Positions 2,002 through 19,138 of a stretch of 51,577 nucleotides of DNA are shown here, one piece after another. Where the stretch lies: contig JAJFHA010000023.1 of assembly GCA_021775875.1 (NCBI GenBank), positions 1 through 51,577 on the forward strand, written 5' to 3'. Below the pieces are notes generated by a model that was not told the DNA's origin, did no database searches, and worked only from the letters and a program-made list of their open reading frames with translations. The stretch's first letter is position 1; each line of letters begins with the position of its first letter. The position numbers were made by a program, and so were the translations under genes. This DNA comes from Hyphomicrobiales bacterium. GTDB lineage: Bacteria; Pseudomonadota; Alphaproteobacteria; Rhizobiales; NORP267.

Positions 2002-2084
2002 GACGAATACCTGAAAAAATATGCGCTGGTCGAAACTGGCGGGCCGCAACGGGCGTTGAAGGGATAGAACCCGGGACACCTAGA

Positions 2085-2225
2085 GTATAGGTGGGTGCCG
2101 AATATCCGAACCCACGGGTCCGGTCAGGGTCAGCTCCCTTAGGGATTGAAAGGGCCCTGGGAAATAAGCTTCTGGCGCACCGCACAGCACCGCCTGTTCG
2201 TAATTTAGGGTGCAACACCCAAAAT
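2085..2225 (-). ncRNA. ssrS: 6S RNA (SsrS), approximate ends
   Basis: The 180-base gap between zapA and the cyclo-ligase gene on the minus strand is where proteobacterial 6S RNA usually lies. The transcript contains segments resembling alphaproteobacterial 6S: GCGGTGCGCCAGAAGCTT near 2175, GGGAGCTGACCC near 2135, and GGGTTCGGATATTCGGCACC near 2100, which can pair as arms around a central bulge. 6S RNA mimics an open promoter and sequesters sigma-70 RNA polymerase. Identity rests on synteny plus recalled consensus, not on a covariance search, and the ends are estimates. The mature RNA is probably co-transcribed with the cyclo-ligase gene. Confidence 0.72.
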
Positions 2226-16199: not shown

Positions 16200-16712
16200 C
16201 TAGTTTGGTTGCGACGCCTTGAAGGCATCCGCAATGCGATTGATATCGCCCTGGACCCTGTTAACGCGGGTCTCGACGCCAGCACCGGTTTCAGAACGCA
16301 ACATCCGCTCCACATTCCGCACCCGGTCGTTCAGCGAGAAACTGCGAAGAACAAGTTTCTGCAATGCATCCGGCATTTCCGCGAAATCTTCGCTCTCCAC
16401 ATTGGCCTGAGAATGTTGGCGCAGGCGAACCTTGTGCTTTTCGCCCTGGGCTTCATCAAAAGTCAGTTCGCCTTCATTGACCGCACGCTGCAACAGCAAC
16501 CAGGACGCGATCTGCATCAATCTTGTTGTGAGCCGCATGCTCTCAGTGGCGTAATTGAGAGACGCAATCCGCGAAAGCGCACGCGATTCCTTGCGCCCAT
16601 CACCGTCAAGATAATTTGCGGTCTCCTCCACCAGGTTCATGCCTTCTTCGAAAAGCTGCTTGAACTGGTTAGAATCCGTGTATTTCTCCACAAACCGAAT
16701 TGTATCTGACAT
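16200..16712 (-). CDS. rcdA: RcdA-type protease adaptor (DUF1465)
   Basis: About 170 residues, alpha-helical, with the DUF1465 pattern: an N-terminal FVEKYTDSNQFKQLFEEGMN, a central RLTTRLMQIASWLLLQRAV and a later SFSLNDRVRNVERML. Caulobacter RcdA belongs to this family and helps ClpXP degrade CtrA during the cell cycle by linking CpdR to substrates. The start ATG 16712 (MSDTIRFVEKY) is preferred; another ATG lies five codons upstream. The promoter is probably the extended -10 at 16911-16919, leaving a leader of about 190 bases. The cell-cycle role here is by homology. Confidence 0.85.
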   Translation of the reverse strand: MSDTIRFVEKYTDSNQFKQLFEEGMNLVEETANYLDGDGRKESRALSRIASLNYATESMRLTTRLMQIASWLLLQRAVNEGELTFDEAQGEKHKVRLRQHSQANVESEDFAEMPDALQKLVLRSFSLNDRVRNVERMLRSETGAGVETRVNRVQGDINRIADAFKASQPN

Positions 16713-16910
16713 ACTCACTCCACTCATTACACTACCAATGCACTGGCCCAGTTCGATACATTTTTGATCGATTTGGACCCGCCAATGCCGATTTGGAACA
16801 CAAATTGACTATTAGCTGACTCTTGCCTGAACTTCTGCAAGAACCAGACCAGTTAAAACACACCAGTCTGGTACTAAATCAAATTGTTCAGAGAGCCTTT
16901 GAACCCGGCC

Positions 16911-16919
16911 ATTATAGCA
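16911..16919 (-). promoter_or_regulatory. Extended -10 promoter, likely for rcdA
   Basis: On the minus strand this reads TGCTATAAT, a perfect extended -10. No good -35 is seen, which an extended -10 can tolerate. Transcription would begin near 16903. It lies immediately downstream of the minus-strand terminator at 16921-16948, so rcdA appears insulated from the transcript behind it. Confidence 0.55.
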
Positions 16920-16920
16920 C

Positions 16921-16948
16921 AAAAAAAAGAGCCGCCTAAAAAGGCGGC
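16921..16948 (-). terminator. Strong Rho-independent terminator, minus strand
   Basis: A GCCGCCT/AGGCGGC stem (16931-16937 with 16942-16948) and a four-base loop are followed, in the minus direction, by TC and an eight-T run. No protein gene on this strand precedes it within 200 bases, which suggests a short non-coding transcript ends here. Confidence 0.75.
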
Positions 16949-17095
16949 CCAAGTGAGTTAACAGGGAGGCGTCAAACAGAGTGACAGGAGCCACTCGATC
17001 CAGATGTCTGGATAAGATTATGTTAGCCTTAATATCCCTAATATTAGGTTAATGCCTTTATCGCTCGTTTGATTTTCTCTTTGCTGGCCACGCTG
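16921..17095 (-). ncRNA. Candidate small RNA upstream of rcdA
   Basis: This is most of the 410-base gene-free stretch between rcdA and the quinone oxidoreductase gene. The minus strand ends in a strong terminator. Just before it, a hairpin (GAGTG/CACTC, 16979-16983 with 16992-16996) exposes a GCTCCTGT loop, and an unpaired GCCTCCC (16964-16970) follows. Both are anti-Shine-Dalgarno-like, as in several alphaproteobacterial trans-acting sRNAs. A TATACT box at 17102-17107 could be the -10, but its -35 is poor, so the 5' end is approximate. The rest of the stretch holds the rcdA leader and the promoter region of the plus-strand gene. Confidence 0.5.
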
Positions 17096-17138
17096 CGGCG
17101 CAGTATACAATAACAAAAAATCATAATCTGGAGCTACA

Positions 17139-18143
17139 ATGTCCCTACAAATTCCCGATACCATGACCGCCGTCGCCATCTCTGAGCCTGGAGGCCCGGA
17201 GGTATTGAAACCCGAACAACGCGCTGTGCCGACTCCAAAATCCGGTGAAATTCTGGTCCAGGTGGAAGCCGCAGGCGTCAATCGTCCGGATATTCTTCAG
17301 CGGCGCGGACTATATCCGGTTCCAAAAGACGCTTCCGACCTGCCCGGCCTTGAAATTAGCGGGACGATTGTTGCAACCGGCGACGGCACCAACCGCTTCA
17401 AGATCGGGGATAAAATATGCGCACTCACAGCGGGCGGCGGTTATGCTCAATATTGCACCGTCGATGAACGTAGCGCCATGCCAATCCCGTCCAACCTATC
17501 AATAATCGAAGCCGCCGCCATTCCCGAAACATTTTTCACTGTCTGGCACAATGTGTTTCAGCGTGGTGGGTTGAAAAGTGGAGAAACATTTCTGGTCCAT
17601 GGCGGCACGTCCGGGATCGGAACCACCGCGATCCAGTTGGCCAAAGCCTTTGGTGCCAAAGTTATCACCACGGCCGGGTCTGCAGAAAAATGTGATTTCT
17701 GTCTCAAGCTCGGTGCCCAAAGAGCTATCAATTATATGGAAGAGGATTTCCCTGAAGCGGTTATGGCCGCAACCGATGGCCATGGCGCCGATGTTATCCT
17801 TGATATGGTGGGTGGAGACTATGTGGAGCGCAATTACGCCGCTGCCGCTGTTGAAGGCCGGATCATCCAGATTGCATTTTTACGCGGCGCTCAAACGGAC
17901 GTGAATATCACCCCGCTTCTGATCAAGCGCCTTGTCCATACCGGCTCAACGCTGCGCCCCCGGTCTCTTGAATTTAAGGGCCAGATCGCAGCTGAACTTG
18001 AAGACCAGGTGTGGCCGCTAATCGAAAATGGGTCGTTACGCCCGATCATGGATTCTACATATCCACTGGAAAATGCCATGGCTGCCCACGAAAGAATGGA
18101 AACGAGCAAGCATATCGGAAAAATCATGTTGGAAGTTTCATAA
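17139..18143 (+). CDS. NAD(P)H quinone oxidoreductase, PIG3/zeta-crystallin type
   Basis: 334-residue zinc-independent MDR reductase. It has an N-terminal GroES-like domain with EAAGVNRPDILQRRGLYPVP (family signature), then a Rossmann domain with LVHGGTSGIGTTAIQLAKAFG, and AERIIQIAF-like strands in the C-terminal half. PIG3-type enzymes reduce quinones with NADPH. The start ATG 17139 gives MSLQIPDTMTAVAI; a second ATG at 17163 (MTAVAISEPGGPE) also matches homologues. Neighbours give no pathway. Confidence 0.9.
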   Translation: MSLQIPDTMTAVAISEPGGPEVLKPEQRAVPTPKSGEILVQVEAAGVNRPDILQRRGLYPVPKDASDLPGLEISGTIVATGDGTNRFKIGDKICALTAGGGYAQYCTVDERSAMPIPSNLSIIEAAAIPETFFTVWHNVFQRGGLKSGETFLVHGGTSGIGTTAIQLAKAFGAKVITTAGSAEKCDFCLKLGAQRAINYMEEDFPEAVMAATDGHGADVILDMVGGDYVERNYAAAAVEGRIIQIAFLRGAQTDVNITPLLIKRLVHTGSTLRPRSLEFKGQIAAELEDQVWPLIENGSLRPIMDSTYPLENAMAAHERMETSKHIGKIMLEVS

Positions 18144-18304
18144 CCAGTCTGGAGATATGGATTTTTTGATCACGGAATTTTTTCTGGATAAATGCGGGAA
18201 GCGATTGCGTAAATAACCGGTTGCGCGTATATCAACGCCAATTCAACACATTTTGAATTTGAGCCCTCGCTTCCCATTTGAGGCGAACGGATGGAGGAAT
18301 TTGC

Positions 18305-19138
18305 ATGTCGAGCATGCTGCTAATGCCCAGGGCGACTGCCGTTTGGTTGGTCGACAACACATCGCTAACGTTCGCACAAATTGGCGATTTTTGCGATATT
18401 CACGAATTGGAAGTGAAAGGCATCGCTGATGGCGATGTGGCCCATGGTATCCTCGGGCTTGACCCGATCGGCAAGGGACAATTGACCCGTGCCGAGATTG
18501 AAAAAGGCCAGGACGATCCGGAATATCGGATGAAATTATCCGCGCCGAAGGTAGAGGTGCCGGAAATTGCACGGCGCAAAACCCCGCGCTACACCCCACT
18601 TTCGCGCCGCCAGGATCGTCCCAACGCCATCCTCTGGTTGCTGCGCTACCACCCGGAATTACGCGATTCTGAAATTATCAAGCTCGTCGGCACAACCAAG
18701 CCAACGATCCACGCTATTCGGGAACGTACCCATTGGAACTCGGTCAACCTGGTTGCCGCCGACCCGGTCGGATTGGGCCTGAGTACCCAGATCAATCTGG
18801 ATGCCGTTGTACGAAAAGCTGGCGAACGGGCGGAACGCGAAAAACTGGCGCAGGACAAAGCCGCAGGCATTACCGGTGAAAGCATTACGCTTACACCCGC
18901 TGAAAGGGCGATTGCCGACGCGGTACCTACTCCTCTGGAAAGCCCCGCAAAATCAGACACGGAAAACGTCCCTGATGCCAGCGAGGTTTTCGCAAATCTT
19001 GATAAGGCAGAAAGTGCTGAGGCCCAGGTTGAAGCTGACGAAACCGAAGAAGAGCTGGATGCTGATTCGGTATTTGCCAAATTGAAAGCTCTGAAAGATG
19101 ATCTGGAAGAAACCAAAGACGACGCGGAACAGGAATAA
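18305..19138 (+). CDS. TrcR-type cell cycle transcriptional regulator (DUF1013)
   Basis: 277 residues with the DUF1013 core in the first 160: VDNTSLTFAQIGDFCDIHEL, GIADGDVAHGILGLDPI, RQDRPNAILWLLRYHPEL, and a helix-turn-helix-like DSEIIKLVGTTKPTIHAIRE. The C-terminal half is acidic and low-complexity, more variable and longer than usual. A GGAGG ribosome-binding site precedes ATG 18305. The family is annotated as a cell-cycle regulator in alphaproteobacteria; the target promoters are not known from sequence. It lies 1.6 kb from rcdA. Confidence 0.82.
   Translation: MSSMLLMPRATAVWLVDNTSLTFAQIGDFCDIHELEVKGIADGDVAHGILGLDPIGKGQLTRAEIEKGQDDPEYRMKLSAPKVEVPEIARRKTPRYTPLSRRQDRPNAILWLLRYHPELRDSEIIKLVGTTKPTIHAIRERTHWNSVNLVAADPVGLGLSTQINLDAVVRKAGERAEREKLAQDKAAGITGESITLTPAERAIADAVPTPLESPAKSDTENVPDASEVFANLDKAESAEAQVEADETEEELDADSVFAKLKALKDDLEETKDDAEQE

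Follow-up and report, generated by a model that had tools for sequence, protein, structure and literature searches.

A BjrC1505-family small RNA gene beside rcdA in Alphaproteobacteria, with a predicted CtrA-dependent promoter

What RNA ends at the terminator that lies on the minus strand just ahead of the protease adaptor gene rcdA, and what might switch its transcription on? The question is raised by a stretch of 51,577 nucleotides from a Hyphomicrobiales bacterium (hereafter the window, meaning the whole stretch of DNA that was analysed), in which rcdA and a divergent PIG3-family quinone oxidoreductase gene (QOR) flank an interval (Table 1) where the first-pass annotation had proposed a small RNA (sRNA) gene with exposed anti-Shine-Dalgarno motifs. 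Family models confirmed the identities of RcdA, QOR, TrcR and L31. A further cell-cycle regulator gene, trcR (PF06242), is located at window 18278-19138 (+), two genes from rcdA; 41 of 158 loci gave a tblastn match to it, and many loci are too short to contain the gene. We have confirmed that a minus-strand sRNA gene beside rcdA is real, and the earlier interpretation as a whole is partly supported.

An Rfam scan of the window has shown that the candidate is a member of a known, little-studied family of alphaproteobacterial sRNAs, BjrC1505 (RF02356), whose model it matches over the full length and above the gathering score (E 5e-14). BjrC1505 was reportedly first described by Madhugiri and colleagues. 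No function of BjrC1505 was found reported in the open PMC literature searched, nor did that literature yield a relevant paper with the core sequence in its full text, or any mention of a CtrA link, of a shorter transcript or of the rcdA locus for this family; within that scope, these last three points are new here. The only other Rfam family above its cut-off in the window is 6S RNA (RF00013), at 2038-2193 (-), which scores 50.7 bits (cut-off 46.4). Two minus-strand open reading frames, of 60 aa with a GTG start and of 87 aa with a TTG start, overlap the sRNA. We rejected both as genes: they were judged non-coding by eye, and the reading frame is not kept among homologs because hairpin 2 in the window is one base shorter than in most of them.

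The terminator stands where the first-pass annotation had placed it, with a 9-bp stem (7 G-C pairs) at 16950-16929 of the minus strand followed by T8. It is the sole terminator found in 16700-17200, where shuffles expect 0.4 (s.d. 0.6), and is, taken alone, only mildly unusual. The RNA leading into it folds better than chance would give: for a 92-nt form the minimum free energy structure coincides with the centroid, the z-score is -5.37, and none of 200 dinucleotide shuffles folds as well, while a 141-nt form has a z-score of -4.22. A transcript of 150-190 nt had been expected; the 5' end lies more probably near 17013 than at 17107, giving an RNA of about 92 nt. The hairpin described earlier as having a CTCCT loop does exist, but in the 92-nt fold its loop is the 4-nt UCCU, the first C of CTCCT being paired. 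Likewise, the CCTCCC described as unpaired is indeed single-stranded (unpaired probability about 1.0), but is placed in the 6-nt loop of the weak hairpin 3.

Table 1. Coordinates of the features at the rcdA-QOR locus (positions in the window)
Feature	Position	Strand	Basis or remark
Predicted mature sRNA, ~92 nt	16922..17013	-	Four-hairpin fold; promoter elements end just before; predicted 5' end, +/- few nt
Hairpin 1 (AUCCAG-ACAU-CUGGAU)	16998..17013	-	Fold; double changes in 4/5 pairs counted
Hairpin 2, UCCU loop at 16989-16986	16979..16996	-	Fold; double changes in 4/6 pairs counted
Weak hairpin 3, CCUCCC loop at 16969-16964, candidate seed	16958..16975	-	Fold, accessibility
24-nt core CACTCTGTTTGACGCCTCCCTGTT	16960..16983	-	Exact in at least 120 stretches of the genome collection
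Intrinsic terminator and T run	16921..16950	-	Double changes in 6/8 pairs
CtrA-box-like site TTAACCTAATATTAG	17038..17052	-	7/8 bases of TTAA-N7-TTAA
Putative -10-like element TAACATAAT (TAACAT or CATAAT)	17017..17025	-	Weak; T-A-T-N-A-C-T-like in the 114-locus profile
Extended -10 TGCTATAAT, possible rcdA promoter of the genus	16911..16919	-	2/156 loci
Rfam RF02356 (BjrC1505) match	16922..17062	-	Model 1-140, full length; 82.2 bits, cut-off 50
Protease adaptor gene rcdA, starting at 16712 or 16727	16200..16712	-	NF051867, 196.4 bits, cut-off 170; PF07323
PIG3-family quinone oxidoreductase gene (QOR), divergent	17139..18143	+	TIGR02824, 501.8 bits, cut-off 296.8

The structure was examined in an alignment of 60 homologs hand-chosen from the thinned loci. 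Of the cells for the 23 pairs of hairpins 1, 2 and 3 and of the terminator, 95.3% are paired (89.5% when shuffled, 40-53% when slid), and double changes are found in 14 of the 23 pairs, against 6.2 in shuffles. Covariation is present in hairpins 1 and 2 and in the terminator; helix 3 (GACG-CCUCCC-UGUU) is nearly invariant, and covariation is uninformative there. (A model termed R1 was set aside; RNAalifold omitted hairpins 1 and 2.) All 60 homologs expose CCUCCC or an equivalent (mean accessibility 0.95), a CUCC-type motif of the anti-Shine-Dalgarno class, and its CUCCC is near-invariant. The conservation of the hairpin and of the CUCC motif, named earlier as a check on the sRNA, is therefore borne out, with the exception that the UCCU loop of hairpin 2 is variable in more distant homologs, outside the close set. 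Because of this variation, the CUCCC of loop 3 is the better candidate seed.

Upstream of hairpin 1 lies a CtrA box that the first-pass annotation overlooked. A side-by-side comparison of homologs revealed TTAA-N7-TTAR at a fixed upstream place, and we scored its presence in 118 loci thinned from 148, accepting at least 7 of the 8 bases within an interval of 21 positions and using 200 rounds of dinucleotide shuffles for comparison. The box was found in 114 of the 118 loci, against 1.9 expected and a shuffle maximum of 7, and a perfect 8/8 box in 51 of them, against 0.07 expected. The spacer is variable while TTAA and TTAR are kept, as in a protein-binding site. In the profile of the 114 loci, the -10-like element follows 26-32 nt after the start of the box, with hairpin 1 starting around +40. 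Measured from the core (5-95% ranges), the box starts at -79 to -69 (174 loci, including some repeats), whereas the rcdA match starts at 188-646 (154 loci) and QOR lies at 154-2802 (126 loci); the box is fixed in position relative to the RNA and varies in its distance from both neighbouring genes. No further conserved element was seen in the ~110 nt that precede it, the information content being at most 0.23 bits beyond 3 nt from the box. The box of the window itself reaches 7/8 only, and a second 7/8 match overlaps the -10. A simple sigma-70 scan returned no minus-strand promoter here, which fits an activator-dependent promoter and lends it no support. The genome encodes CtrA (83% identity to the C. 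crescentus query sequence used), GcrA and Hfq.

The simplest reading of this arrangement, in which the box precedes the predicted start at a constant position in 114 of 118 loci, is a CtrA-dependent promoter from which the RNA would start at hairpin 1, near 17013. If so, the first ~45 positions of the Rfam model, which look like a promoter, would be promoter DNA. It could be argued instead that the RNA is ~140 nt long, as in Rfam, where the box bases are modelled as part of the family, and that TTAA-N7-TTAR is RNA sequence merely resembling a CtrA box. We think this unlikely: the spacer varies freely while the two half-sites are kept, the DNA upstream is without conserved sequence that could be a promoter, the fold of the 92-nt form stands out more from shuffles than that of the 141-nt form, and several Rfam pairs of the 5' part are broken in the window.

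The gene neighbourhood bears on two further explanations. Among 61 relatives, RF02356 was matched in 51, rcdA in 56 and both in 49; two had the sRNA without an rcdA match, seven had rcdA without an RF02356 match, and three had neither. With R2, a second model described below, an RNA was located next to rcdA in three of the seven genomes that have rcdA without an RF02356 match. Of the 49 genomes with both, 46 have rcdA 145-328 nt downstream in the same orientation, and the remaining three (G012, G014 and G021) have it on another contig. At the level of loci, rcdA is downstream in 126 of the 131 that have at least 1 kb of downstream sequence, and QOR is divergent and no more than 1.3 kb upstream in 102 of 138. 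Since the remaining five of the 131 loci retain the RNA and a 7/8 box without an adjoining rcdA, the sRNA gene is an old neighbour of rcdA, yet independent of it. In one Bradyrhizobium metagenome-assembled genome (L073), the sRNA and box are inverted between rcdA and the oxidoreductase gene, possibly through an assembly error.

So constant a neighbour might suggest that the RNA forms the 5' portion of the rcdA mRNA, a cis-acting leader or attenuator governing read-through. The loci that hold RNA and box without rcdA downstream, the inverted unit of L073 between the same neighbours and the three genomes with rcdA on another contig all speak against such a leader, as does the strength of the terminator, for which no antiterminator alternative was noticed in an unsystematic look; we regard a leader function as improbable. 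Alternatively, the box may serve rcdA or the divergent oxidoreductase gene, with the RNA as a passenger. C. crescentus rcdA is indeed listed among genes whose promoters have a CtrA motif (PMC4287350), but the box lies at a constant distance from the RNA and from neither gene, the terminator stands between box and rcdA, and in S. meliloti rcdA is described as not responding to CtrA depletion although a CtrA ChIP-seq signal lies at its promoter (PMC4433202). That the box belongs to a neighbour therefore seems to us unlikely.

A CtrA-driven sRNA in the interval upstream of rcdA could explain these published observations. Besides the S. meliloti data, a CtrA motif upstream of an rcdA transcription start site (TSS) was noted earlier (PMC3616915), and a study of three agrobacteria reports several TSSs for rcdA, the CtrA site lying further upstream than it does in Caulobacter (PMC10469942). 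We give an even chance to the broader proposal that an old alphaproteobacterial module is at work, in which CtrA would directly drive a short anti-Shine-Dalgarno sRNA between the divergent oxidoreductase gene and rcdA in many orders; the CtrA sites described ahead of rcdA in Sinorhizobium and in agrobacteria would then be those of this sRNA and not of rcdA. It had also been claimed that a perfect extended -10 for rcdA follows the terminator. The element is present exactly as claimed, but TGNTATAAT occurs at this place in only two of 156 loci, those of the window and of a congener (G002), and a role for rcdA is for this reason not backed by conservation. It may be a local rcdA promoter; it is not part of the conserved feature.

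RF02356 matched 85 of 101 relatives, 74 of them above the cut-off, and none of 14 control genomes, a panel that includes Caulobacter vibrioides; in a class-wide draw it matched 30 of 289 genomes, 14 above the cut-off. The core matches listed include Bradyrhizobium, Bosea, Stappia, Mesorhizobium, Brucella endophytica and Parvibaculum. A second RF02356-like copy was seen in six genomes (G022, G028, G053, G100, G101 and G308).

As a check, the R2 model was built from the transcript alone, with the box left out. It matched 110 of the 121 genomes in the family of G027, nine of the 11 misses being genomes of at most 2.6 Mb. We infer that this taxonomic family corresponds to the Rhizobiaceae as GTDB defines them; the match coordinates in G450 are those of the core in Mesorhizobium sp. 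L-8-3. Among the matches listed, 28 of 29 strong Rhizobiaceae loci have the box. Of 20 weaker, hand-picked loci, in which the RNA body has diverged, 19 carry a box of at least 7/8, and all 20 have rcdA on the same strand, 270-397 nt downstream of the match start. Seven of the weaker loci (L278, L283, L284, L288, L290, L295 and L296) were scanned against Rfam and none reached a cut-off, while other members of the same family pass RF02356 (e.g. G072, 72.8 bits). Diverged relatives occur beside rcdA in Rhizobiaceae. When 27 genomes were re-searched with R2, seven were matched at E <=0.01 and 20 were without a match; the best matches (E <=1.2e-5) were in G055, G091, G025 and G046, and those in G025, G046 and G055 lie just upstream of rcdA.

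Across the class, R2 matched 94 of 289 genomes; the weak matches are a mixture, and the figure is not a count of orthologs. Among the matches listed, with 55 nt scanned, the box was found in 21 of 28 loci, sometimes at an unusual place, and no good box in the other seven; two R2 homologs, L391 and L393, have a 6/8 box. Several matches were rejected as orthologs: L315 is SorX, L308 is suhB/MmgR, and L303, L305-L307, L309 and L314 are without the box and without rcdA or QOR in the right place, the 8/8 box in L309 being a chance occurrence inside the R2 match. A different sRNA-like element, made up of a (G/A)-CGUCUCCCAGACGU hairpin, then GAAGCCUCCCUGU and a terminator, lies around position 1500 in these last six loci when oriented. 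It occurs in other orders, without rcdA or QOR adjoining and without a box upstream, and in the four loci scanned against Rfam (L305, L306, L307 and L309) nothing reached a cut-off.

From the patterns described above we infer the following course of events. Phosphorylated CtrA would bind the box at 17052-17038, at about -39 to -25 from the predicted start and overlapping the -35 region, a position that fits activation, and would thereby activate a promoter having a weak -10; CtrA could also repress instead. Transcription would stop at the intrinsic terminator ahead of rcdA, and the C-rich loops of the RNA (UCCU and CCUCCC), probably with Hfq, would pair with GGGAG-type Shine-Dalgarno regions of several mRNAs, whose translation would be lowered while CtrA is active. 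We lean slightly towards this explanation as a whole, that is, a ~92-nt BjrC1505 sRNA activated by CtrA and acting in trans through anti-Shine-Dalgarno pairing.

Possible targets were scored by the longest exact complement to a 21-nt seed within the 30 nt preceding the start codon, with start codons picked by a rough rule that left several rcdA starts at doubtful GTG codons. The mean longest complement was 4.67 for ctrA (30 loci), 4.61 for gcrA (18 of 20 loci, two not being found and the start in L401 looking wrong), 4.46 for rcdA (61 sequences, in which some genomes appear twice), 3.83 for QOR (29) and 3.78 for rpmE (27). In their start regions, ctrA and gcrA show no better complementarity to the seed than rcdA does, and these two genes are not favoured as targets. 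A mean of 5.85 was obtained for SBP_bac_3 genes (13 of 17 loci), a value that owes its height to three congeners. CAGGGAGG was found 3-10 nt before an ATG at six sites in this genome (one in the reversed control), nine in G001 (five) and 11 in G002 (one), several of the sites not being gene starts. One of the sites precedes an SBP_bac_3 gene for an amino-acid-type periplasmic binding protein (L326:772-1503, minus strand), whose Shine-Dalgarno region CAGGGAGG matches the seed; the match is present in three of three congeners and is not kept further out. This gene is the best target lead, one common only within the genus.

If the proposed mechanism is true, the CtrA circuit gains a post-transcriptional arm in many orders: an RNA damping the translation of other genes would be switched on by the cell cycle. 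The tie to CtrA gives BjrC1505 a directly testable cell-cycle role. It would also offer an answer to the oddity in S. meliloti, where CtrA is on the rcdA promoter and rcdA expression does not follow CtrA. Furthermore, our results suggest that the curated Rfam model includes promoter DNA and misses some diverged members. In the open PMC literature we met a handful of alphaproteobacterial cell-cycle sRNAs, i.e. CcnA, EcpR1 and GspR.

CcnA (CCNA_R0094) of Caulobacter crescentus likewise combines a CtrA-box promoter, the box being reported at -23, with an exposed C-rich loop (PMC8959179), and the sRNA studied here might be thought its ortholog, acting on ctrA and gcrA. This is very improbable. RF02356 matched none of the 14 control genomes, with Caulobacter vibrioides among them; CcnA is described as an RNA of 182 nt in the replication origin (PMC4287350) with a CCCC loop and with ctrA and gcrA as targets (PMC8959179); and the CCCC loop A of CcnA type is absent from the window RNA, whose loops are UCCU and CCUCCC and for which neither gene is favoured as a target. 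EcpR1 of Sinorhizobium meliloti is also a conserved rhizobial sRNA linked to the cell cycle (PMC4414408), but it is encoded by divK-pleD, targets dnaA and gcrA, and has the loop UCCGCCGCAUCU, which is absent from the window RNA. AbcR (alpha-r15) and NfeR1 (alpha-r14) are reported to act at ribosome-binding sites through unpaired anti-Shine-Dalgarno motifs, which in NfeR1 lie in the loops of three hairpins (PMC7143759); their sequence families are different from that of the window RNA. A similar exposed CUCCC before a similar terminator is found in suhB/MmgR (RF00519), but the window RNA scores 34.4 bits against that model, below the cut-off of 41. With BjrC1505, by contrast, it shares the same hairpins, core and terminator, the difference being that the first ~45 model positions are read here as promoter DNA with a CtrA box.
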